From positions 248,001-312,000 of the forward strand of contig CAINNJ010000064.1 of NCBI GenBank assembly GCA_903851195.1: a stretch of 64,000 bases of DNA, written 5' to 3'. Positions within the stretch are counted from its first letter, which is position 1; the number at the start of each line of letters is the position of its first letter. Below the pieces are notes generated by a model. It had not been told where the DNA came from. It was given only the letters and a program-made list of their open reading frames with translations, and did no database searches. Positions 52,980 through 64,000 of the stretch are shown in pieces. The stretch comes from an uncultured Acidobacteriia bacterium. Its GTDB lineage: Bacteria; Acidobacteriota; Terriglobia; Bryobacterales; Bryobacteraceae. The position numbers and the translations under genes were made by a program.

Positions 52980-54476
52980 ATGAAGACGCTCTGGTTGTTC
53001 CCCGTGCTGGTTTCCACCGCCACCGCCGCCGGACCCGCGCTGCAATGCACGGATCTGGCCGCCAAACCCTTCGGCAAGGACGTCAGGATCGTCTCGGCGA
53101 CCCTCATCCCCGCCAAAGACTCCCTGCCGGAACACTGCGACGTCCGCGGCGTCATCTGGCCCGAAGCCGGTTTCGCCATCAAACTCCCCACCGCCTGGAA
53201 CGACCGGTTTCAGATGGTCGGCAACGGCGGCACCGCGGGCACCATCAGCATCGGAGCCGTGGACGGCGCCGTGCGCAAGGGCTTCGCCGCCGCCTCTACC
53301 GATACCGGACATGACGCCGCGAAAGAACCTCTCGCCACGTTCGCCTACGTGACCCCGCAGAACCCCGAGGGTCATCGTAAATTCCTCGATTTCGCGTATC
53401 TCTCGGTTCACGAAACCGCCGTCCTCGCGAAACAGGTGATCCGGACCTACTACGGTTCCGCGCCCCGCTACTCCTACTGGGTCGGCTGTTCCACCGGCGG
53501 CCGGCAAGGCCTGCAGGAAGCCCAGCGCTATCCCGAAGATTTCGACGGCCTCGTCGTCGGCGCCCCCGGCCTCTACAACACCGGCAACTCGATGCGCCGC
53601 ATCTGGATCGGCCAGACCCAAACCGGCGACGGCGCCATACCGGCCGAAAAACTCCCCCTCATCACCAAAGCCATCTACGAAAAATGCGACGCCCTCGACG
53701 GCCTGAAAGACGGCCTGATCGACGATCCCCGCCGCTGCCCGTTCGAGCCCGCCCGCGACCTGCCGAAATGCGCGTCCGGAAACGGCGCCGATTGCTTCAC
53801 CGCGGCCCAGCTCGACGCCCTCACGAAGATCTACGGCGGCCCGCGCACCTCCGCCGGCAAACAACTCTTCCCTGGCGAACTGGTCGGCAGCGAACCCGTG
53901 TGGCCCGACAATTTCATCCTGCCCGACAAAACCGTGCTGCCCCGCGCCGAGAGCCAGATGAAATACGAAATGCTCGATCCCGCCCCCGGCCCGTCCTGGA
54001 CTTTCCGCCTGTTCAACTTCGATTCCGATCCCGCCCGCCTGTCGAAAGCAGCCGCGGAACTCAATGCCCTGAACACGGATCTGTCCCCCCTGAAGAAACG
54101 CGGCGGCAAAATCCTGCAGTATTCCGGCTGGGCCGATCAGCAGGTGAATCCCCTGCCAGGCCTCGACTATTACGAAACCGTCAGCCGCAAATTCGGCGAC
54201 GCCGCCACGCGCGATTTCTACCGCGTCTTCATGGTTCCCGGCATGTTCCACTGCAACGGCGGACCCGGCTGCAACACCGCCGACTGGCTCACCGCCGTGA
54301 TGAACTGGGTGGAAAAGGGAACCGCCCCCGCGCAGCTGACCGGCGCTCACATCGAAAGCGGCAAGACCACCCGCACCCGGCCGCTCTGCCCGTATCCGCA
54401 GGTCGCCCGCTACAAAGGCATGGGAAGCACTGACGAAGCGGAAAACTTCACTTGCGTGGCACCGAAACCGGAATAG
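52980..54476 (+). CDS. Tannase/feruloyl esterase-family protein
   Basis: 498 residues with a signal peptide (MKTLWLFPVLVSTATAAG). The nucleophile motif is VGCSTGGRQGLQEAQRYPED, the acid and base are in QYSGWADQQVNP and MVPGMFHCNGGPGC; conserved Cys pairs and CFTAAQLDALTKIYGGP complete the family pattern. It hydrolyses ester bonds of phenolic acids in plant or tannin material and acts outside the cytoplasm, fitting a polymer-degrading soil lifestyle. Confidence 0.9.
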   Translation: MKTLWLFPVLVSTATAAGPALQCTDLAAKPFGKDVRIVSATLIPAKDSLPEHCDVRGVIWPEAGFAIKLPTAWNDRFQMVGNGGTAGTISIGAVDGAVRKGFAAASTDTGHDAAKEPLATFAYVTPQNPEGHRKFLDFAYLSVHETAVLAKQVIRTYYGSAPRYSYWVGCSTGGRQGLQEAQRYPEDFDGLVVGAPGLYNTGNSMRRIWIGQTQTGDGAIPAEKLPLITKAIYEKCDALDGLKDGLIDDPRRCPFEPARDLPKCASGNGADCFTAAQLDALTKIYGGPRTSAGKQLFPGELVGSEPVWPDNFILPDKTVLPRAESQMKYEMLDPAPGPSWTFRLFNFDSDPARLSKAAAELNALNTDLSPLKKRGGKILQYSGWADQQVNPLPGLDYYETVSRKFGDAATRDFYRVFMVPGMFHCNGGPGCNTADWLTAVMNWVEKGTAPAQLTGAHIESGKTTRTRPLCPYPQVARYKGMGSTDEAENFTCVAPKPE

Positions 54477-54608
54477 TCCGGAATGCCGCGCAAACGTTGA
54501 TCTTTCCGTGTAATTAATTTACGATTGGAAGTCTATGGAGCCGATACATTCCCCGGCTTTAACGGCGAGTGTCTGCGTCTCCGCGCGGAGCGCCACGCCG
54601 GCACGCGC

Positions 54609-56666
54609 ATGATTTTTTTCCTGCCGATTCTCATGTCCGCCGCCTCGGTAACGGCGGTGACCGTCATGGAACGCAGACGCGTGCGCCTGGCGGCCAAAAC
54701 TCTGCCGGTCTCGCAGCCCGCGCCCGTCGGCATGCAAGCTCCTGCCCCGCCAGCCTCGCCAGCGCTCGATGTCGCGGATGACAAGGGTATCCGCCTTCGC
54801 GCCGGCTTCGTCGGTTCTACTCTCCCTCATAGTGACGACGAAAAACGCGAACTGGCCGCGCTGCGCCGTGGGTCCGTGGGCCTCGGCCTGAGCACGGTCG
54901 GCGTTTTCTTTCCGCCCCTGCAACTGGCCGGCATCGCCCTGACCATGCCGGAGATCAAAGACGAATTCGCCGACGCATGGCACGCCCTGGTTCACGAACG
55001 CCGCATCCGTTCTTCCATGGTGAGTTCCGCCTTCGTCGTCGGCTCCGTCGCGGGCGGCTACTTCTTTACCCTCACCGCCGGAGGCTGGCTCATCGGTCTG
55101 AACCGCTGGCTGGCGGCCAAAGCGGAACGCGAATCCAGACAAGGGCTCGTCGAAAACTTCAGCCGGCTGCTGGACGACGTTCGCGTGGTGTACGACGGCA
55201 GCGAGACCGACATCCCCGCCGAACAGGTTCGCCCCGGCGATGTGGTCGTGATCCGCGCGGGCGCGACAACGGTCCTGGATGGCGTCGTCCTCGAAGGTTT
55301 TGCTTCCGTCGACCAGCATCTCCTCACCGGCGAACTGCAGCCCGCCGAACTGGGTCCGGGCGACCGCGTCACCGCCTCCACACCCGTCCTCGCCGGCCGC
55401 GCCCTGGTGCGCGTGGAACTCCCGCGCGCCGGCATCACGGCCCCGCGCCTCGGCCACGCCGTCGCCGATATCGACGGCTACAAAAAAGACCTTGCCGAGC
55501 GCCTCGAAACAGCCAGTGACAAGGCGGCCTTGCCCTCCCTGTTCCTCGGCCTGGTCGCCGCCCCCTTCGTGGGACTCGGCGGAGCCATGAGCATGCTGAT
55601 GGTCTCCGCCGCCTACCGCATGAAGCTCTACAGTCCGTTGAGCATGTTGCGGCAGATGGACCTCGCGGCCGGACGGGGCATTCTGGTCAAAGACGGCCGG
55701 GCTCTCGAACGGGCGCGCACCGTCGACACCGTCGTCTTCGACAAATTCGCCGTGCGCTCCATGGAGCAGGCCCAGGTGGTCAATATTCACTCCTGCGCCG
55801 GTTTTCTGGATCCCGAAGTGCTTCGCCTCGCCGCCGCCGCCGAAACGAACCAGACGCATCCGCTGGCGCGCGCCATCCTCGCCGCCGCGGAAGCCCGCAG
55901 CATCGCCCCGCCCGTTGTGGACCACTCCGAATATGTGCCCGGCTTCGGTATCGAAGTCCGGCTTGGTGGCAGGACGGTCCGCGCCGGAAGCCGGCGTTTC
56001 ATGGCGGCCGCCAATCTGACCGTGCCGCCGGCCATCGACCGCGTGGAAGCCGACGCCCGCCGCAACGGCCACTCCGTCGTCTATGTCGCGGCCGATGGCT
56101 CACTCGCCGGCGTGATCGTCCTCGAGCGCGTGCTGCGTGAGGATTGCCAGACCATGATCGTGCGCCTGCGCTCGCGCGGCCTGAAAATCTGGCTCCTCTC
56201 CGGCGAACCCGAAGAAGCCACCAAACAGATGGCCTCCCGCATCGGCGCCGACCGGCATTTTTCCGATCGGTCCACCCAGGAGAAAGCCGCTCTCATCAAA
56301 CAGTTGCAGCAGGAAGGCAGCAAAATCTGCCTGGTGGGCGATGGCGTCCGGGACGCCGCCGCGCACAAAAGCGCCCTGGTCTCCGTCTCCCTGCGCGGCC
56401 CGGCCACCATCGCCGAAGACGGCGCGCAGATGGTGATTCTCCGCGGAGAAATCACGCAACTCCGGCAGGTCTTCGGTCTCGCCACGGAATTCGCGATCAG
56501 CAGTCAGGCCCTGTCGTTTGCGTCTTCCCTGCCCAGCTTCGTCATCGTCGGTGGCACCATCTTCTTCGGATGGGGCCTGCTGACCAACATGCTCCTCTAC
56601 CAGGTCTCCATCCCCTTCACGCTTCACAGGATGGCGAAAACGGCGCGTTCCCGTCAGACCCGCTGA
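54609..56666 (+). CDS. P-type ATPase-like protein with degenerate catalytic motif
   Basis: 685 residues from ATG 54609 (TTG 54525 is possible). Layout is P1B-like: N-terminal membrane helices, an actuator domain with LTGELQP (TGE kept), two helices, a P domain and an N domain with the NQTHPLARAI (HP) motif, then GDGVRDAAA. The phosphorylation motif DKTGT is DKFAV (Asp378-Val382) in TVVFDKFAVRS, and the metal-binding CPC helix reads MSMLMVSAAYRM. The Asp itself remains. The N-terminus has no metal-binding domain. It is probably inactive in transport or has another role; full-length conservation argues against a simple pseudogene. Confidence 0.82.
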   Translation: MIFFLPILMSAASVTAVTVMERRRVRLAAKTLPVSQPAPVGMQAPAPPASPALDVADDKGIRLRAGFVGSTLPHSDDEKRELAALRRGSVGLGLSTVGVFFPPLQLAGIALTMPEIKDEFADAWHALVHERRIRSSMVSSAFVVGSVAGGYFFTLTAGGWLIGLNRWLAAKAERESRQGLVENFSRLLDDVRVVYDGSETDIPAEQVRPGDVVVIRAGATTVLDGVVLEGFASVDQHLLTGELQPAELGPGDRVTASTPVLAGRALVRVELPRAGITAPRLGHAVADIDGYKKDLAERLETASDKAALPSLFLGLVAAPFVGLGGAMSMLMVSAAYRMKLYSPLSMLRQMDLAAGRGILVKDGRALERARTVDTVVFDKFAVRSMEQAQVVNIHSCAGFLDPEVLRLAAAAETNQTHPLARAILAAAEARSIAPPVVDHSEYVPGFGIEVRLGGRTVRAGSRRFMAAANLTVPPAIDRVEADARRNGHSVVYVAADGSLAGVIVLERVLREDCQTMIVRLRSRGLKIWLLSGEPEEATKQMASRIGADRHFSDRSTQEKAALIKQLQQEGSKICLVGDGVRDAAAHKSALVSVSLRGPATIAEDGAQMVILRGEITQLRQVFGLATEFAISSQALSFASSLPSFVIVGGTIFFGWGLLTNMLLYQVSIPFTLHRMAKTARSRQTR

Positions 56667-58168
56667 CCGGCCATCTGCCTTCCGATCAGCGCCAGATCCG
56701 CCGCTTCCGGCGTGGTCTCGAACACCAGCTTCCCTTCGCTCATCACGAAGATGCGATCAGCCAGTTCCAGCAGCTCATCCAGATCCTCGCTGATCAGTAA
56801 CACCGCCGCCCCGTCGTTGCGGGCCTGCAACAACTGATCGTGGATAAAATCCACCGCCTTGAAATCCAGCCCGAAACACGGATTCGCCGCCACCAGCACC
56901 CGCACCTTCCCGCTCGAAAGTTCCCGCGCCAGAATCGCCCGCTGCACGTTGCCGCCGGAAAGGTCGCCGATCGCCAGTTCTCCCTCGGGCGGCCGCACCG
57001 AAAACTTCCGGATCATCTCCCGCCCGAAATCCGCGATCGCCTTGCGGTCCAGCAGGAACCCGAACTTCTGAAACGGTGGCCGGTCGAAGAGCCGGAACGC
57101 GATATTCTCCGCGACACTCATGCGCGGCGCCGATGCATTGCGCAGCGGTTCTTCGGGCAGGATAAAAAAACGGTGTTGCAGCAGCATCTCGCGCGTCGGC
57201 AGATGCCGCTCGCCATCCACCGTGATCGCCCCGGCCGTCATCTCGCGCTGGCCCGCAATCGCCTCCAGCAGTTCGCGCTGCCCGTTCCCCGAAACCCCCG
57301 CGATCCCCACAATCTCGCCTTCGCGCACCGTCAGACGAACCTCCTTCACGGCCTCCACGCCGCTGTCGCCCACCGCGCCGATCCCGTCGAGATACAACAC
57401 CGGCCCGCCCGGACTGCGTGTCTTCCCCACCTTCCGCTCCGCGCGCGCCTCGCCCATCATCATTTCCGCCATCCGCGCGGAATCCAAGTCCGCCGTGCGG
57501 CCCGCCCCGGCCTGCTTTCCCCGCCGCAACACCGTCACGCCGTCGCAAAACGCGAATACTTCCCGGAATTTATGCGTAATCAGCAAAACGCTGAGTTCGC
57601 CCCGATCCACCATGCGCCGCAACAGCCCGAGAACCTCGTCCGCCTCCTGCGGCGTCAGCACCGATGTCGGTTCATCCAGAATCAGAAAGCGCGTCTCCAG
57701 ATAAAGCTCTTTCAGAATCTCGACTTTCTGTTTCTGCCCCGCCGAAAGCGTGGAAATCCGGCTGTCCGGATCCACATGAAACGGCGCCTGCTTCAGAAAC
57801 TCCGCCAGCCGGACGCGCTCCGCTTTCCAGTCGATCACCATCGGCAGATCCGGCCTCGCCAGCACCAGATTCTCCGCCACCGTCATCGAAGGAACCAGCG
57901 TGAAATGCTGAAACACCATGCCGATCCCGTGCCGCCGGGCCTCTTTCGGAGATCCCACCCGCAGCGGCTCGCCATTGACCTTCACCACGCCCTGGTCCGC
58001 CGGATAAAACCCCATCAAACACTTGACCAGCGTGCTCTTCCCCGCGCCGTTTTCACCCAGCAGCGCATGGAAGACGCCGGGCGGCAGATGCAGGCTGACG
58101 TTGTCCACGGCCTTCAGCGCGCCGAATGTTTTGGTAATTCCGACAGCTTCGATATCGGGCGGCTTCAT
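56654..58168 (-). CDS. Double-domain ABC ATPase of a BMP-type nucleoside/sugar importer
   Basis: 504 residues, two nucleotide-binding domains as in RbsA or NupA/YufO. Domain 1 has GENGAGKSTLVKCLMGF, LSAGQKQKVEILKEL and FLILDEPTSVLTP; domain 2 has a degenerate Walker A (GVSGNGQRELLEAI) and LSGGNVQRAILAREL. This drives the two permeases encoded upstream. Its end overlaps the convergent P-type ATPase gene by 13 bases. Confidence 0.9.
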   Translation of the reverse strand: MKPPDIEAVGITKTFGALKAVDNVSLHLPPGVFHALLGENGAGKSTLVKCLMGFYPADQGVVKVNGEPLRVGSPKEARRHGIGMVFQHFTLVPSMTVAENLVLARPDLPMVIDWKAERVRLAEFLKQAPFHVDPDSRISTLSAGQKQKVEILKELYLETRFLILDEPTSVLTPQEADEVLGLLRRMVDRGELSVLLITHKFREVFAFCDGVTVLRRGKQAGAGRTADLDSARMAEMMMGEARAERKVGKTRSPGGPVLYLDGIGAVGDSGVEAVKEVRLTVREGEIVGIAGVSGNGQRELLEAIAGQREMTAGAITVDGERHLPTREMLLQHRFFILPEEPLRNASAPRMSVAENIAFRLFDRPPFQKFGFLLDRKAIADFGREMIRKFSVRPPEGELAIGDLSGGNVQRAILARELSSGKVRVLVAANPCFGLDFKAVDFIHDQLLQARNDGAAVLLISEDLDELLELADRIFVMSEGKLVFETTPEAADLALIGRQMAGQRV

Positions 58169-58175
58169 CGTGTTC

Positions 58176-59105
58176 TTACTTCTTTCCCAGGGCGCCCGGC
58201 ATGCCCGTCAGGCTGCGGTTCGGCGAGCACGTCGCAATCATCACCGCCAGAGTCAGCAGATACGGCGACGCATTGAACAAGTGGTAATAACCATTGATTC
58301 CCAACGACTGCAGCGACGGCCCCAGCGCCTGCGCGCCCCCGAACAGCAGCGCGGCCGCCAGACATCGCCGCGGGCTCCACCGCGCGAAAATCACCAGCGC
58401 CACGGCCATCAGCCCCTGCCCCCCCGAAATCCCTTCCGACCAGATACCCGGAAAATACAGCGTCAGATGCGCCCCGCCGATCGCGGCCAGCCCACCGCCC
58501 GCCGTGATCGCGAAAAAACGCACCCGGTTGACATCGATCCCCAGTGCCCGCGCGGCCTGCGGATCGTCGCCCGTCGCCCGGATCTGCAGCCCCCAGCGCG
58601 TCCGCGTGAATACCCAGTGCAGCAGGAAACTCAGCGCGATCCCCACGAAGAACAGCGGACTGATGCGCAAGGCCGAAGCCACCGCCGGCGTGTGACTCCA
58701 GCCGCCCAGATTCAGAAGCGGCAACTGCGGCGCCATCGGGGCCACGAAGCGCTTGCCGAAGAAGAACGCGAGACCGCTGCCGAACAGGATCATCGCAATC
58801 CCCGCCGCCACATCGTTCACCGCCGGCTGCTGCGTCATCCACGCATGCAGAGCGCCCAGCAGCAGCCCCGCCGCCGCCGCGGCCAGCACACCCAGCCACG
58901 GAGACCCGGTCAGATCCGAAACCCCGAACGCCGTCATCGCTCCCATCAGGAGCACGCCTTCCATCCCGAGATTGATCTTGCCGCTCTTCTCCGTCAGGCA
59001 CTCGCCCAGACTCACGAACATATACGGAATGCTGCCCCGCATCGCGCCCCCGCACAGCGCGACCACCAAGCCCCACCCTCCCAGACTCTCAGGCGGCAAC
59101 TGCAT
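58176..59105 (-). CDS. ABC importer permease (YufQ/NupQ-like)
   Basis: 309 residues with eight or nine membrane helices. KSGKINLGMEGVLLMGAMTA carries the NLG-EG motif of BPD-type permeases for simple sugars and nucleosides; the partner lies upstream and overlaps by 17 bases, the ATPase starts seven bases after it. Works as one half of a heterodimeric permease. Confidence 0.87.
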   Translation of the reverse strand: MQLPPESLGGWGLVVALCGGAMRGSIPYMFVSLGECLTEKSGKINLGMEGVLLMGAMTAFGVSDLTGSPWLGVLAAAAAGLLLGALHAWMTQQPAVNDVAAGIAMILFGSGLAFFFGKRFVAPMAPQLPLLNLGGWSHTPAVASALRISPLFFVGIALSFLLHWVFTRTRWGLQIRATGDDPQAARALGIDVNRVRFFAITAGGGLAAIGGAHLTLYFPGIWSEGISGGQGLMAVALVIFARWSPRRCLAAALLFGGAQALGPSLQSLGINGYYHLFNASPYLLTLAVMIATCSPNRSLTGMPGALGKK

Positions 59106-60138
59106 TCGCTTTGCCTCCCGGAATCTTCAAACGACCGTACACCGTATCGCTCAGCAGGATGAACAGAAACAGCGTTCCCTCCAGCACCGTGATGGTGGCA
59201 TCGGGGAGATCGTGCGCCCGCTGCAGCATCCCGCTGCCCGCGACCAGACCACCCACCAGCACCGAGAACAGCATCACGCCCAGCGGCGACTGCCGCGCCA
59301 GAAACGCCACCAGAATACCCGTGTACCCATACCCGGCATTCAGCGATTCATTCCCGCGCCCGTGTACCGCCGCCACTTCCACCATGCCCGCAATGCCCGC
59401 GCACGCGCCGCCCAGAAATCCTGCCATCACCACCAGCCGCCCCACCGGCAGACCCACCAGCTTCGCCGTGCGCACATTGCCCCCGGCTACTTTCATCGAA
59501 AAACCGAACGTGGTGCGCTCCACCAGAAACCACGCCACCAGGCAGCCGATCACGCCGAACAGCAGCCCGTGGTGCACATGAGTTCCCGAGAAGAAGCCCA
59601 ACCGGTGATCCAGCGGAAGCGGGAACGTCGCCGGACTGTTGAAGCTCGACGGATCCCGCAGCGGCCCCTCGATCAGCTGGTTCATCAAGGCAATTGCCAG
59701 ATAATTCAGCAACAGTCCACTGATCACCGCACTCACACCGCGATAATGCTGCAGCGCCACACTGAAAGCGATCCACAGACCGCCGCACAGCATCGCCGCC
59801 AGCACCATGAAAGTCAGGCTCACCAGCGAAGGCATTTGCGCAGTCGACAGTCCTGCCGTGATCGCGCCCAGGCCCCCCACCACCACCGCCCCTTCATTGC
59901 CGATCACGATGATTCCCGCGCGTGCCGGCAGCGCGGTGCAAAGGCCGCAGAGCAGCAGCGGAGACGCGCGCACCAGCGTGTTCTGCCACGAATACCAACT
60001 CCCGAAACCGGCCTTCCAAAGCGATGCATACACGCCTAACGGATTCACGCCCAGCGCGGCGCAGAACACGCCGAACACAAGCATGGCGGCGGCCACCGCG
60101 CCCAGTGGCACGAACAGATCGGGCCCTTTCAGCTTCAT
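59089..60138 (-). CDS. ABC importer permease (YufP/NupP-like)
   Basis: 349 residues from ATG 60138 (ATGA overlap with the binding protein). About nine membrane helices; ARAGIIVIGNEGAVVVGGLG is the family's version of the cytosolic EG loop, GGNVRTAKLVGLPVGRLVV a typical coupling region. Pairs with the next permease. Confidence 0.87.
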   Translation of the reverse strand: MKLKGPDLFVPLGAVAAAMLVFGVFCAALGVNPLGVYASLWKAGFGSWYSWQNTLVRASPLLLCGLCTALPARAGIIVIGNEGAVVVGGLGAITAGLSTAQMPSLVSLTFMVLAAMLCGGLWIAFSVALQHYRGVSAVISGLLLNYLAIALMNQLIEGPLRDPSSFNSPATFPLPLDHRLGFFSGTHVHHGLLFGVIGCLVAWFLVERTTFGFSMKVAGGNVRTAKLVGLPVGRLVVMAGFLGGACAGIAGMVEVAAVHGRGNESLNAGYGYTGILVAFLARQSPLGVMLFSVLVGGLVAGSGMLQRAHDLPDATITVLEGTLFLFILLSDTVYGRLKIPGGKANAVAA

Positions 60139-61241
60139 CGCGCGCTGCCCTCCACGCCTTCCACCAGGTAATCCATGCGATCGAGTTCCACATCCGCCAC
60201 GTTGAGCGTGGTGCCCGCGGCGATCTGAACCTTCCCCTGGTTGTCCCGAACCGGTCCGCGATAGATGCCGAGCGAGCCGTTCAGAATGCCCGCCTTCGCC
60301 GCCGCGATACGCTCCCGCGCCGTCTGCGACACCGAAGGACCGTATGGCGAGAGCTTGCAAAACTCATCTTTCAGCGTGCCCGTCAGACGCCGCGGAATGG
60401 TCCCGTTGGTCACCGACAGCCCGTCCCGCGCCATCTGCGCCACGCGTTGATAAACCGTGCCCCAGGCCCACTGCGCGCCCGTCAGAAAACCCCGCGGCGC
60501 CATACTCGACTGATCGAACTGATAGCCGCAGCCGAACACCCCGCGCCGTTCCGCCGTCTGCACAATCACGCGCGGCGAACCGGTATGTCCGGTCAGCACA
60601 TCGATCCCCTGATCCACCAGACTGCTGGACGCCTCGGCCTCCCGCACCGGCAAAACCCAGTCGCCCGTGAACACCACCTTCGTGGTGACCCGCGGATTTA
60701 CGCTGCGCGCCCCCAGCGTGAAACTGTTGATATTGCGCAGCACCTGCGGAATCGGTTTCGCGGCCACGAAGCCCAGCTTGCCCGTCCGCGTCGACATCCC
60801 CGCCAGCATCCCGGACAAATACTCCACTTCGTCGATAAAACCGAAATAAATGCCGATATTCTTCGGGTGTTTCTTCTCGTCGTAAAGTCCGCCGCAGTGA
60901 AAGAACTGCACGGACGGATTCTCGCGCGCAATATCCACCGTGAACGGATCGAAATGGCCGAACGAAGTCGCGAACACCACCTTCGCCCCGTCCTGATAGA
61001 TCATGTCGCGCATGGACTCCCCGGCGGCCACCGTCTCCGGCACGCTGGCTTCTTCCACGGCCTTCACCCACGGGAATTTTCGCAGTGTCGCCTTGCCTTC
61101 CGCATGGGACTGGTTGTAACCAAGATCGTTCTTCGGGCCGTTGTAGATGAAGCCGATAACCAGCGGATCCTGGGCGTGCTCCGCCGCCAGCAGCGGCGAA
61201 CCGGCCATCGCCGCCAACAGTTGCCGGCGCGTCACGGACAT
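60135..61241 (-). CDS. BMP-family substrate-binding protein
   Basis: 368 residues. MSVTRRQLLAAMAGSPLLAA is a Tat-like export signal (RRQLL). The rest matches the BMP/Med family of nucleoside and related binding proteins: VIGFIYNGPKNDLGYNQSHA and FFHCGGLYDEKKHPKNIGIY. It delivers its ligand to the permeases encoded next. Overlaps AtzE by ten bases. The ligand is inferred only from the operon partners: a ureide or nucleoside-like compound. Confidence 0.88.
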   Translation of the reverse strand: MSVTRRQLLAAMAGSPLLAAEHAQDPLVIGFIYNGPKNDLGYNQSHAEGKATLRKFPWVKAVEEASVPETVAAGESMRDMIYQDGAKVVFATSFGHFDPFTVDIARENPSVQFFHCGGLYDEKKHPKNIGIYFGFIDEVEYLSGMLAGMSTRTGKLGFVAAKPIPQVLRNINSFTLGARSVNPRVTTKVVFTGDWVLPVREAEASSSLVDQGIDVLTGHTGSPRVIVQTAERRGVFGCGYQFDQSSMAPRGFLTGAQWAWGTVYQRVAQMARDGLSVTNGTIPRRLTGTLKDEFCKLSPYGPSVSQTARERIAAAKAGILNGSLGIYRGPVRDNQGKVQIAAGTTLNVADVELDRMDYLVEGVEGSAR

Positions 61242-62632
61242 GACACCGGCGCCGAGACCGCCCCGCGCGACTGCAGTTCCCACGCCACCCGCAGCAACTT
61301 CGCCTCCTGATACGGCGCGCCGATCAGTTGTACGCCCACCGGCATCCGCCCCGGCACATGCACCGGCACCGTCACCACAGGCAAACCGATAAAGGAGATC
61401 GGCTGCGAAAAGATACCGAGATTGGCGCGCGATGGCATGGTCTTCCCGTCCAGCACAATCGTCTCCTGTCCCGCGCGTATCGCCGGGCAAGGCGTGGCGG
61501 GCGCCAGAATGACGTCCGTATTTTTGAAAACTTCCCGCATTTGCTCGCGATACCAGGTTCGAAACCGCTGCGCGAAACTCACCCACGCCGCAGGGACCAG
61601 CGTCCCGGCCAGAAACCGGCTTCGCGTCAAAGGATCGAACCGTTCCGCCTGTGTGCGCAGATCGTTCAGATGATGATTGCCGCCCTCTGACGCCGTAATC
61701 ACATACGCCGCGGCACGCGCCCTCGCGGCTTCGGGCAATTCCACCACGTGGCTCGCGCTTAGCGAAGCGGCCACGGCGGTCACGGCCTCGAACACCGCCG
61801 GCTCACCCTGTTTCATGAAGTACCCGCCCGCCACGGAAATGCGAAGTCCCTCCGCGCCTTTCGTTAAGTCGGACAGACAGAACTCCTGCGGCAGGTCGCT
61901 GCAGACCGGGTCGCCGGGATCCGGCCCGTTCAACACGTCGAACGCCGCCGCCAGATCCTCCGCAGACCGCGCGAAAGGACCGATGTGGTCCAGACTTCCC
62001 ACAAACAGGAACGCCCCTCTGCGGGAGATCCGTCCGTAAGTCGGTTTCAGCCCGAAAACACCGCAGAAAGCCGAGGGCACCCGAATCGACCCGTTGGTGT
62101 CGGATCCCAGCGTCAAAGGCACCAGACCCGCCGCCACCGCCGCCGCCGAGCCCCCCGAAGATCCGCCGGCCACACGGCTCAGGTCATGCGGATTCTTCGT
62201 AACACCGTAATGGCTGTTCTCAGTCGTGAACCCATACGCGAACTCGTCCATGTTCAGCGCGCCCAGCAGCACGGCCCCGGCCTTGCGCAGCGCTGCCACC
62301 GTCGCCGCGTCTCGCTCCGGCGCCGCTGCACTGGCGCGAATCACCGAACCCGCCAGAGTCGGCAAGCCCTGAATATCGAGCAGGTTCTTGACCGCGTAAG
62401 GAACTCCGGCAAGAGGCCCGGGATCTTCGCCGCGGCCAATCGCCGAGTCCACCGCCGCGGCCTCCTGAAGAGCCCTTTCCGCGGTTACGGCCGTAAAGCA
62501 GTTCAGGGTGGAGTCCGCGGCTGCGATCCGGCTCAGCGCGGCCTGTGCCACCGCGACTGCCGTCGTCCGGCCCGACTTGACCGCGCCCGCGATAGCGACC
62601 GCGCCCTGTTCGCCCGATAAGAAGTCCGTCAT
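61232..62632 (-). CDS. AtzE/HpxY-type amidase (GatA family)
   Basis: 466 residues with the amidase-signature Ser-cisSer-Lys triad: Lys in PYAVKNLLDIQG, the serines in AGGSSGGSAAAVAAG and GSDTNGSIRVPSAFCG. Of the family, AtzE removes an amide from 1-carboxybiuret and HpxY works in oxalurate breakdown; both need a small GatC-like partner (AtzG/HpxX). Here the partner is fused to the protein encoded just before. ATGA overlap with the fusion gene. Confidence 0.85.
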   Translation of the reverse strand: MTDFLSGEQGAVAIAGAVKSGRTTAVAVAQAALSRIAAADSTLNCFTAVTAERALQEAAAVDSAIGRGEDPGPLAGVPYAVKNLLDIQGLPTLAGSVIRASAAAPERDAATVAALRKAGAVLLGALNMDEFAYGFTTENSHYGVTKNPHDLSRVAGGSSGGSAAAVAAGLVPLTLGSDTNGSIRVPSAFCGVFGLKPTYGRISRRGAFLFVGSLDHIGPFARSAEDLAAAFDVLNGPDPGDPVCSDLPQEFCLSDLTKGAEGLRISVAGGYFMKQGEPAVFEAVTAVAASLSASHVVELPEAARARAAAYVITASEGGNHHLNDLRTQAERFDPLTRSRFLAGTLVPAAWVSFAQRFRTWYREQMREVFKNTDVILAPATPCPAIRAGQETIVLDGKTMPSRANLGIFSQPISFIGLPVVTVPVHVPGRMPVGVQLIGAPYQEAKLLRVAWELQSRGAVSAPVSCP

Positions 62633-63183
62633 GGTTTGAATACCGTCGCCGCTTCCACTTCCTGCTGCAGGGGAAACTCCATCAGAAACCGCGCGATGTT
62701 CCGGATGCCGTTCAGGTCGTCGCTTACCGCACTACGGTTCGCCGGATGCACCGGAACACCGATCTGCCCCGCCGCCGCGTCCAGATAAGAAGGCGGCCCC
62801 GGCAGCAGCGAAACATGCGCGGAGACAATCTTCCAGCCCTCCGGAAACCGATACCAGAACTGCGTCTGCCGGCCGTGCCGCTCCGTGCCGTCCATGGGCC
62901 GTACAAACTCCAGATTCACGATACCGGCCGAGGTCCCCAGCGTGAGGATCTCCAGATGGGAGATGGTGCGGTCGAGATTGACGCTCGGGCGTCCCTGCCG
63001 GAACGCCCGAATCTCCTCCGCCCCGTGCAGGTTTTCCGTTACGCCGTACCGTATGGCGTGAGCGGATTCCCAGAAGAACGTATTCAGTGTGGCGACGTCG
63101 TTGCCAATCAGGGCCGCTTCATAACGCGTATGAAGCGCCGTGATTTCCGCCACCACGGCGGGGTCGTTGATAAGAACCGTCAT
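62629..63183 (-). CDS. HpxZ/AtzH-HpxX/AtzG fusion protein
   Basis: 184 residues. The first 128 are a SnoaL-like AtzH/HpxZ domain (DUF3225): TRYEAALIGNDVATLNTFFW, TISHLEILTLGTSAGIVNLE, QTQFWYRFPEGWKIVSAHVS. From residue 133 the sequence (YLDAAAGQIGVPVHPANRS ... FLMEFPLQQEVEAATVF) matches AtzG/HpxX-like DUF4089 proteins, the GatC-type subunit that AtzE needs. The subunit is normally separate. The stop overlaps the AtzE start, so both should be made in equal amounts. Confidence 0.78.
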   Translation of the reverse strand: MTVLINDPAVVAEITALHTRYEAALIGNDVATLNTFFWESAHAIRYGVTENLHGAEEIRAFRQGRPSVNLDRTISHLEILTLGTSAGIVNLEFVRPMDGTERHGRQTQFWYRFPEGWKIVSAHVSLLPGPPSYLDAAAGQIGVPVHPANRSAVSDDLNGIRNIARFLMEFPLQQEVEAATVFKP

Positions 63184-63194
63184 CTGAGAGACTC

Positions 63195-64000
63195 TCAGAA
63201 CTTATAAGACATCGTCAGACTGAGAGTTCGCATCGCACTCGGTTTAATAAACACATCCCAGAACAAGTACTGAGAAGTGAAGTAATTCGAGTTCGTGAAG
63301 TTGTTCGCCGCGAGGTTAACCGAGTAGTTCTTATGGGACCAGAAAACCGATCCGCGCCACACCGCGTAAGAAGGCAGCATCACGGGCGTCAGGAATCCCG
63401 CCTGCACCTTCTGCACCCAGGTGGTGCCGAGCGTGAAACCAAAATCCCGAACCGGCGTGTAGGTGCCGAAGGCGCTGATCACGACAGGCGGCTGACCCGC
63501 CACCTTCACGGGCGCTTTGATGTTGAAGATCGAAGCATCGCCGATGAACCGGCCGCCGTAAGCCTGCTGCGGCGTCAGGCCCAGAACCTGCGGAGGAATG
63601 CCCAGCAGGAACGGGATATTCAGTTGCTCCGGCTTCTGCCAGGTATACGCGCCGGTGATGCTGAAATTCCGCGTCACGGCTGCGCGCACTTCGCCTTCCA
63701 GACCCTGCGTGCGGAAGTAGTCGATGGAGCCGCTCTGGGAGTTGAAAGACGAGTGCTTCTGGTGGTAATACGAGAGCGAGGCGAACAGCTTGTTATCGAG
63801 CGCGCTCACCTTGCCGCCGGCCTCATACATGTTGGAAGGCTGAATCCAGGTCTTGTTCTGCAGCTGCGAATAATCGAGTTCGCCGCCCTGGCCGAGATCG
63901 AGGTACCGCGAGGTCGCGTAGGTGAAGTAAGGAGCCAGATGGAACGGCAGCTTGTAGCTCACGCTGGTATTGAACGTGGCTGTGTTCCCGGTGTCCGTGC
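63195..64000 (-). CDS. TonB-dependent receptor, C-terminal part (cut by window edge)
   Basis: About 268 residues to the stop, an outer-membrane barrel end: alternating strands with aromatic edges (SLSYYHQKHSSFNSQSG, GAYTWQKPEQLNIPFLLG, WSHKNYSVNLAANNFTNSNY) and final TLSLTMSYKF with the Phe signal. The FhuA/siderophore-type barrel differs from the Oar-like receptor at 31-34 kb. It ends 11 bases before the HpxZ-HpxX gene on the same strand, so the operon probably starts with it. Confidence 0.88.
   Translation of the reverse strand, partial: TDTGNTATFNTSVSYKLPFHLAPYFTYATSRYLDLGQGGELDYSQLQNKTWIQPSNMYEAGGKVSALDNKLFASLSYYHQKHSSFNSQSGSIDYFRTQGLEGEVRAAVTRNFSITGAYTWQKPEQLNIPFLLGIPPQVLGLTPQQAYGGRFIGDASIFNIKAPVKVAGQPPVVISAFGTYTPVRDFGFTLGTTWVQKVQAGFLTPVMLPSYAVWRGSVFWSHKNYSVNLAANNFTNSNYFTSQYLFWDVFIKPSAMRTLSLTMSYKF

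Follow-up and report, generated by a model that had tools for sequence, protein, structure and literature searches.

A conserved leader RNA, a candidate translational switch, precedes a TonB receptor, AtzH-AtzG fusion, AtzE amidase and BMP importer gene line in Acidobacteriota of the order Bryobacterales

We analyzed a 64,000-nucleotide stretch of DNA (the window; G000:C64:248001-312000) from the 7.72 Mb genome of an uncultured acidobacterium of the family Bryobacteraceae (G000), at one end of which a line of genes that may take up and hydrolyze a nitrogen compound stands behind a conserved leader RNA; coordinates above 64000 are carried on from the contig past the window edge. Seven genes lie in line on the minus strand; the sequence-only reading had recognized this line and named all seven members, but counted them as six. 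The first encodes a TonB-dependent receptor of 874 residues with CarboxypepD_reg, plug, and barrel domains assigned by domain matches (63195..65819, of which 63195..64000 lies inside the window), and the second a 184-residue protein in which AtzH, of the NTF2-fold decarboxylase family, is fused to AtzG, of the GatC-like subunit family (62629..63183). These are followed by an AtzE-type amidase of 466 residues, assigned by curated families (61232..62632), a BMP-family periplasmic binding protein of 366 residues (60135..61235, with a GTG start and an ATG at 61241), two ATP-binding cassette (ABC) permeases of the BPD_transp_2 type (59089..60138 and 58176..59105), and a 504-residue ATPase with two ABC domains (56654..58168). 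From the ATPase to the receptor, the junctions are a 7-nucleotide (nt) gap, a 17-nt overlap, three 4-nt overlaps, and an 11-nt gap. Upstream of the receptor gene and outside the window, the minus strand carries the conserved leader RNA (65867-65981; L004:3368-3482), whose 3' end lies 47 nt before the receptor start, then its two 5' hairpins, P0a and P0b (65987-66027), and a promoter-like site (66031-66059) that is a pattern match only; no sigma-54 site was found before the receptor by pattern.

The sequence-only reading proposed looking for the order from receptor to ATPase in other Acidobacteriota, and it recurs there. A search with the fusion gave matches in 17 of the 257 genomes screened from the same order. 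The complete fusion is present in 11, five have a stand-alone HpxZ, and in G407 only the last 38 residues of the fusion are seen, where a contig stops. The receptor directly precedes the fusion in all 11 of the 12 fusion genomes that are testable on the contig, and the operon proteins are each 48-91% identical between the window and its relatives. The BMP protein occurs in 10 of the 257 genomes, in nine of them in the operon after AtzE. Because the gene order recurs in relatives, it is not a product of chance. The tenth BMP protein (G608) is a 43-44% relative in a different gene order; it belongs to a distant importer (L085:5143-10158) that reads ATPase-permease-permease-BMP, is 35-43% identical, and lacks a close AtzE match. 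In 396 genomes drawn evenly from across the phylum, a full-length fusion match came from G000 alone, strong HpxZ-type matches occurred in seven genomes of another family, and ten further matches were weak.

The AtzE protein clears its curated cut-offs (NF006631, 708 vs. 461 bits; TIGR02715, 686 vs. 426 bits) and is 54% identical to AtzE of plasmid pADP-1. In the fusion, the AtzH part matches PF11533 (165 vs. 27 bits) and the AtzG part, residues 133-182, matches PF13318 (40.5 vs. 24 bits). All nine AtzH pocket residues named in PMC6219798 are conserved in the window fusion and in ten fusions related to it. A second AtzHG-AtzE pair in G000 (L024:9898-11873, on C33), 66% and 77% identical to that of the window, has no such receptor, no importer beside it, and no leader RNA; it clusters with the window's genus and is therefore probably a paralogue. 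It has a similar promoter-like site (TTGATC, TATAGT). A Verrucomicrobial contig (L134:1558-8269) carries a receptor, an AtzHG fusion with two of the nine pocket residues changed, AtzE, a BiuH-like hydrolase, and a 525-residue protein that appears membrane-like by eye and lacks any Pfam match; L054 (G461) contains the start of a similar protein. The BiuH-like cysteine hydrolases that follow AtzE in G461 (284 bits) and L134 (277 bits) are both under the cut-off of 370.

An allophanate hydrolase had been expected just outside the window. This held for two relatives, in which the gene directly follows the ATPase: in G413 it encodes an allophanate hydrolase (797 bits vs. a cut-off of 511), and in G498 an amidase that carries the C-terminal domain of allophanate hydrolase. 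These are two of the seven operons that have sequence at this place. It did not hold for G000, where the window operon is without an allophanate hydrolase (AtzF) and a gene with the C-terminal domain lies elsewhere, on C8, beside a urea carboxylase, and so has a second use. Over the 257 genomes the domain was found in 73, namely in 11 of the 12 fusion genomes (not in G563) and 62 of the 245 others (Fisher p 5e-6, without correction for kinship); for the window's genus alone the counts are 6 of 6 and 6 of 13.

The BMP protein (PF02608, 114.9 vs. 24.1 bits), with the ABC permeases and the double ATPase alongside, has an N-terminus that we take to resemble a twin-arginine signal. Among solved proteins, the closest match to it is AtzT from Pseudomonas sp. 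ADP (E 1e-64), for which affinities of 110 nM for guanine and 2.2 uM for 2-hydroxyatrazine are given (PMC6834077). The aromatic clamp of the AtzT pocket is conserved in the BMP protein, and Tyr45, Ser97, Phe98 (Tyr in three), Asn169, and Trp194 of AtzT are conserved in all nine acidobacterial operon BMP proteins. In the same nine, three guanine contacts of AtzT are replaced (Glu165 by Gln, Asn218 by His, and Asn220 by Gly). Positions 165, 218, and 220 read Gln, His, and Asp in G608 and in 17 of the 18 Proteobacterial BMP proteins compared besides AtzT, and Ser, His, and Asp in the eighteenth (L117); BiuH or cysteine hydrolases beside the Proteobacterial BMP gene were checked in four loci (L144, L174, L175, and L176). 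The shared Gln and His favor a ligand of the biuret-cluster type over a purine.

The full receptor matches the plug (PF07715, 41 vs. 23.9 bits) and barrel (PF00593, 49.5 vs. 27 bits) families but no NCBIfam family at E 1e-10, and its window part does not reach the siderophore receptor model TIGR01783 (36 vs. 223 bits). At E 1e-100, with three candidates scored per genome, it was found in 12 of the 257 genomes, that is, the 11 in which it stands before the fusion and G420, and no other match to its residues 131-737 turned up in G000 at E 1e-10.

The leader was aligned over 11 genomes (alignment A4), and a model, R1, was built from ten of them. In the 257 genomes R1 found 11 leaders, one place each: the ten training copies and a leader in G495, which is independent of training and scored 112.6 bits. 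The G495 copy (L194:1968-2666, on G495:C45) precedes a 176-residue remnant of the receptor's N-terminal domain type, and the 12 kb examined there gave no match to the fusion, AtzE, or the BMP protein. Ten of the 11 receptor-fusion genomes have the leader; in the one without it, G412, the receptor match starts only near residue 186. Over 267 genomes of the phylum, R1 returned only G000 and one weak place that was rejected; both scans ran with stricter filters, as each covered more than 40 genomes. Against 80 loci, the five strong matches were copies of training genomes, and nothing rose above noise before the second AtzHG-AtzE copy, the Verrucomicrobial operon, or the Proteobacterial clusters. 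A distant leader in G038 (23 bits) was rejected as a chance match, as it overlaps the start of a same-direction reading frame and has many broken pairs; by eye, that frame encodes a winged-helix regulator. No relevant Rfam match was obtained for the 6 of 11 leaders scanned (E up to 1 or 10), guanidine classes included, and the leader contains no tandem repeats.

The consensus fold is multi-branched: GGYC pairs with GRCC in a closing helix, a CCCA:UGGG pairing lies further in, and there are three hairpin arms. After removal of the near-identical G415, the consensus energy was reached by 1 of 300 column-shuffled alignments for A4 and by 0 of 300 for a second alignment (z -4.1 and -4.6). Inside the element, pairing holds in 93.8% of cells, and 2 of 500 shuffles matched its covariation score. 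Stronger support for the fold than this covariation comes from P0a and P0b, which both occur in all 10 distinct leaders and show compensating changes, the arms varying and the pairing kept; their total score is 281.5 vs. at most 156.5 in 400 shuffles that keep base content, not dinucleotides. The position limits of this search were set after viewing the hairpins; when hairpins were sought automatically with no such limits, different ones came up in several leaders.

In the closing helix, the first strand complements the ribosome site, as GUCCCC/GGGGAC in G000, G411, and G415 and as CCUCC/GGAGG or near it in most other leaders. When the 9-nt stretches of the element are ranked against the leader's own site, this anti-Shine-Dalgarno (anti-SD) strand is in the top three in 9 of 11 leaders; its duplex with the SD site reaches -9.1 kcal/mol or better in 9 of 11 and averages -11.1 kcal/mol for cognate vs. 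-9.4 for swapped partners. The closed helix would leave the ribosome site free, so ligand binding would switch translation on. We regard the leader as a candidate translational ON riboswitch in a putative 5' untranslated region. Tentatively, it might represent a new riboswitch class whose ligand is the acylurea imported by the operon and which turns on translation of the dedicated TonB receptor. The ligand candidates would then be acylureas left from oxidized purines, such as triuret, carboxybiuret, biuret, and close kin.

Another possibility, itself a tentative one, is that the leader is a structured RNA but no riboswitch, binding a protein or only setting mRNA stability or basal translation. 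The single gene context would suit such a role. However, its unpaired letters are strongly conserved over the 11 genomes, and its anti-SD strand excludes the closing helix, which is a trait of translational riboswitches. Several measurements count against the leader as a folded switch. Single-sequence folding gives z-scores of only -0.3 to -3.1, and the sequence of the element is little varied, with only 3 of 31 pairs changing on both sides, a number reached by 27 of 500 shuffles. When partners are slid by +3, covariation is 0.101 vs. the 0.107 observed, though only 35% of cells then pair; MAFFT misplaces the closing helix in some rows of this alignment. The cognate duplex beats its own swapped mean in only 8 of 11 leaders, and anti-SD pairing is poor in G535 (-4.7 kcal/mol), where the folded model places the ribosome site in a local hairpin, and weak in G461 (-6.0 kcal/mol).

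We favor, with a probability of roughly 0.5, the reading that the seven genes and the leader switch form one operon that imports an acylurea-type nitrogen compound and hydrolyzes it towards allophanate; judged from the sequences, the compound is most likely an acylurea of the triuret or carboxybiuret kind. The reading builds on gene order, domain make-up, conserved residues, a conserved RNA fold, and complementarity, all of which were observed. The genes would be transcribed as one unit from a promoter that lies roughly 240 nt upstream of the receptor gene. The receptor would move the compound over the outer membrane, and the BMP protein, permeases, and ATPase would then move it across the inner membrane. 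Bound by the AtzG part, AtzE may release the terminal amino group as ammonia, and the AtzH part of the same complex may decarboxylate the unstable N-carboxy product, with the tether serving as a hand-over. Allophanate hydrolase, encoded in the operon in two relatives and elsewhere in G000, would finish the pathway. With ligand present, the closing helix would form and occupy the anti-SD strand, and translation would be on; with the closing helix open, the anti-SD strand would pair with the ribosome site, and translation would be off.

A number of observations weigh against this reading. Three of the 12 fusion genomes have no BMP match; G461 and G588 have other genes after AtzE, and in G411 the contig stops inside AtzE. 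Position 220 of the BMP protein is Gly in the operon and Asp in Proteobacteria, which suggests that the ligand is not exactly that of the Proteobacterial proteins. The usual cargo of TonB receptors is large or scarce compounds (PMC11658791). The BiuH model (TrtA is a BiuH homologue) has no match in G000 at E 1e-10, in a search in which 7 of 14 genomes and 11 of 14 controls matched below the cut-off, and AtzD was found in 0 of 20 genomes, a weak negative since the control was silent. With neither hydrolase found, no known source of carboxybiuret is apparent in G000. On the same results, cyanuric acid was rejected as the substrate (weakly, given the silent control), as was a biuret or triuret route through BiuH or TrtA in the window genome. 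A tree was built from 54 AtzE-like sequences, some of them distant amidases, by a single FastTree run with midpoint rooting, after removal of duplicate loci and of matches that covered fewer than 400 query residues. In it the acidobacterial enzymes fall outside both the pADP-1/beta-proteobacterial and the enterobacterial clades, and as a substrate test the phylogeny gave no decision.

The fusion and AtzE might instead be HpxZ, HpxX, and HpxY of an oxalurate/allantoin branch that turns imported oxalurate into oxamate, which we consider unlikely. The three protein families are the same as in the enterobacterial hpxXYZ genes, HpxX and HpxY presumably being the names of the two members besides HpxZ. 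Moreover, the fusion scores above the cut-off of the HpxZ equivalog (149.8 vs. 135 bits), and an enterobacterial HpxZ has the same nine pocket residues, which thus cannot separate AtzH from HpxZ and leave the substrate unsettled; both points speak against an acylurea. Unlike the hpxWXYZ genes, however, the window line has its own receptor and BMP importer and no hpxW-like (gamma-glutamyltransferase-like) neighbor among the flanking proteins scanned, and an oxalurate route needs no allophanate hydrolase, yet this enzyme is linked to the operon by the two relatives and the 11 of 12 fusion genomes described above.

Purine or nucleoside scavenging, in which the receptor and BMP importer would take up an oxidized purine or nucleoside and AtzE would act late in its breakdown, is still less probable. 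It draws on the guanine and 2-hydroxyatrazine binding of AtzT and on the receptor relative in G420 (54% identical; L195:7166-12505, on G420:C180), which precedes genes for a xanthine permease and an 8-oxoguanine deaminase, both above curated cut-offs; the G420 locus is a purine version of the receptor line. Against it stand the three replaced guanine-contact residues, which make the nucleoside ligand of the sequence-only reading unlikely, and the lack of any purine enzyme among the operon neighbors scanned. The 8-oxoguanine deaminase model matches 14 of 14 genomes scanned at E 1e-60 but exceeds its cut-off only in G420, which has no fusion. Finally, that the leader is conserved merely by recent common descent of one operon is very improbable: all 11 copies do come from one order, but the element (67-86% identical to G000 in eight comparisons) is more conserved than both the flank before the promoter (44-56%, which we estimate is about the level of unrelated DNA in such global alignments) and a stretch of receptor coding sequence in all eight pairs with G000 by crude global alignment, and the P0a/P0b pairing is kept while the arms change.

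The favored reading, an acylurea operon with a leader switch, has known counterparts for its protein part. Clusters that combine AtzG-AtzE-AtzH with ABC transporters and an allophanate hydrolase are known from Proteobacteria (PMC6219798), and BMP transporters are described beside biuH, trtA, and atzF (PMC12625717); pADP-1 likewise has a BMP transporter beside atzDGEHF. With such clusters already described, we class the proteins as a variant within the AtzGEH-plus-BMP type, and the earlier suggestion that the whole series is an undescribed combination holds only in part: a TonB receptor joined with AtzE, AtzH, or HpxZ was not found in print in ranked searches of open-licence PMC text, nor was a riboswitch linked with biuret-type ureides. 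Judging by sequence, what appears new here is the AtzH-AtzG fusion, the dedicated receptor, and above all the leader RNA.

The nearest described system, atzRSTUVW/atzDGEHF of pADP-1 (Pseudomonas sp. ADP, cyanuric acid), has AtzE, AtzG, and AtzH in one operon, a BMP-type ABC importer next door, and an allophanate hydrolase (PMC6219798, PMC6834077). In contrast, AtzH and AtzG of the window are fused and placed before AtzE, no AtzD was found, AtzF lies outside the operon, the BMP pocket differs, the leader RNA stands in place of AtzR, and the TonB receptor stands where pADP-1 has AtzS. The latter is said to be an outer-membrane protein according to Platero 2012. AtzS has no Pfam match, and it is described as part of the transporter (PMC6834077).

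Beta-proteobacterial atzF/atzE-atzH/BMP/formamidase/biuH clusters (L144, Hydrogenophaga) share the order AtzE-AtzH-BMP-permease-permease-ATPase, with 48-59% identity per protein in L144, and the BMP pocket Gln and His. By contrast, in L144 BiuH (413 vs. 370 bits) and a formamidase (548 vs. 406) are placed between the permease and the ATPase, a GntR-type regulator follows at some distance, no receptor or fusion is present in the stretch compared, and there is no leader match. The triuret pathway trtA-trtB-biuH-atzF with bmpA-nupABC shares the BMP importer and the allophanate end (PMC7948467, PMC12625717) and differs by its TrtA/BiuH-like protein, which the window genome lacks at the threshold given above. 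Triuret-type BMP importer/allophanate clusters were also seen on plasmids. One Enterobacter plasmid (L174:5755-17496) carries atzF-BMP-permeases-formamidase-cysteine hydrolase-ATPase-cysteine hydrolase-GntR between IS1 transposase genes, possibly a mobile biuret/triuret-type cluster. Guanidine riboswitch-controlled guanidine carboxylase/allophanate operons similarly have an RNA switch before genes for a nitrogen-rich small molecule (PMC12186494, PMC12508155, PMC11410670), but the six leaders scanned here match no Rfam family.

Around the operon, a P-type ATPase/HAD gene (713 residues, 54525-56666) lies tail-to-tail with the ATPase end, and a divergent carboxylesterase gene precedes the receptor gene. 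Tannase/feruloyl-esterase genes flank the operon on both sides (window 52980-54476 and L004:6805-9782), and a LigAB-type ring-opening dioxygenase adjoins one of them, a neighborhood of aromatic-compound degradation.

An orphan structured RNA before one operon of narrow chemical range makes for a tractable ligand hunt on a single 115-nt RNA. If the riboswitch reading is true, this would be, to our knowledge, the first RNA sensor for such ureides, and its receptor the first TonB receptor shown to import one. The AtzH-AtzG fusion offers a ready test of how an unstable intermediate is handed over. Genetic contexts have been little informative about the substrate of AtzE and AtzH outside the cyanuric acid pathway (PMC6219798, section 14); if the leader answers to a ligand, that ligand would name the natural substrate of these enzymes (HpxY/HpxZ) there, and the operon would show how soil Acidobacteriota may acquire the nitrogen of oxidized purines.

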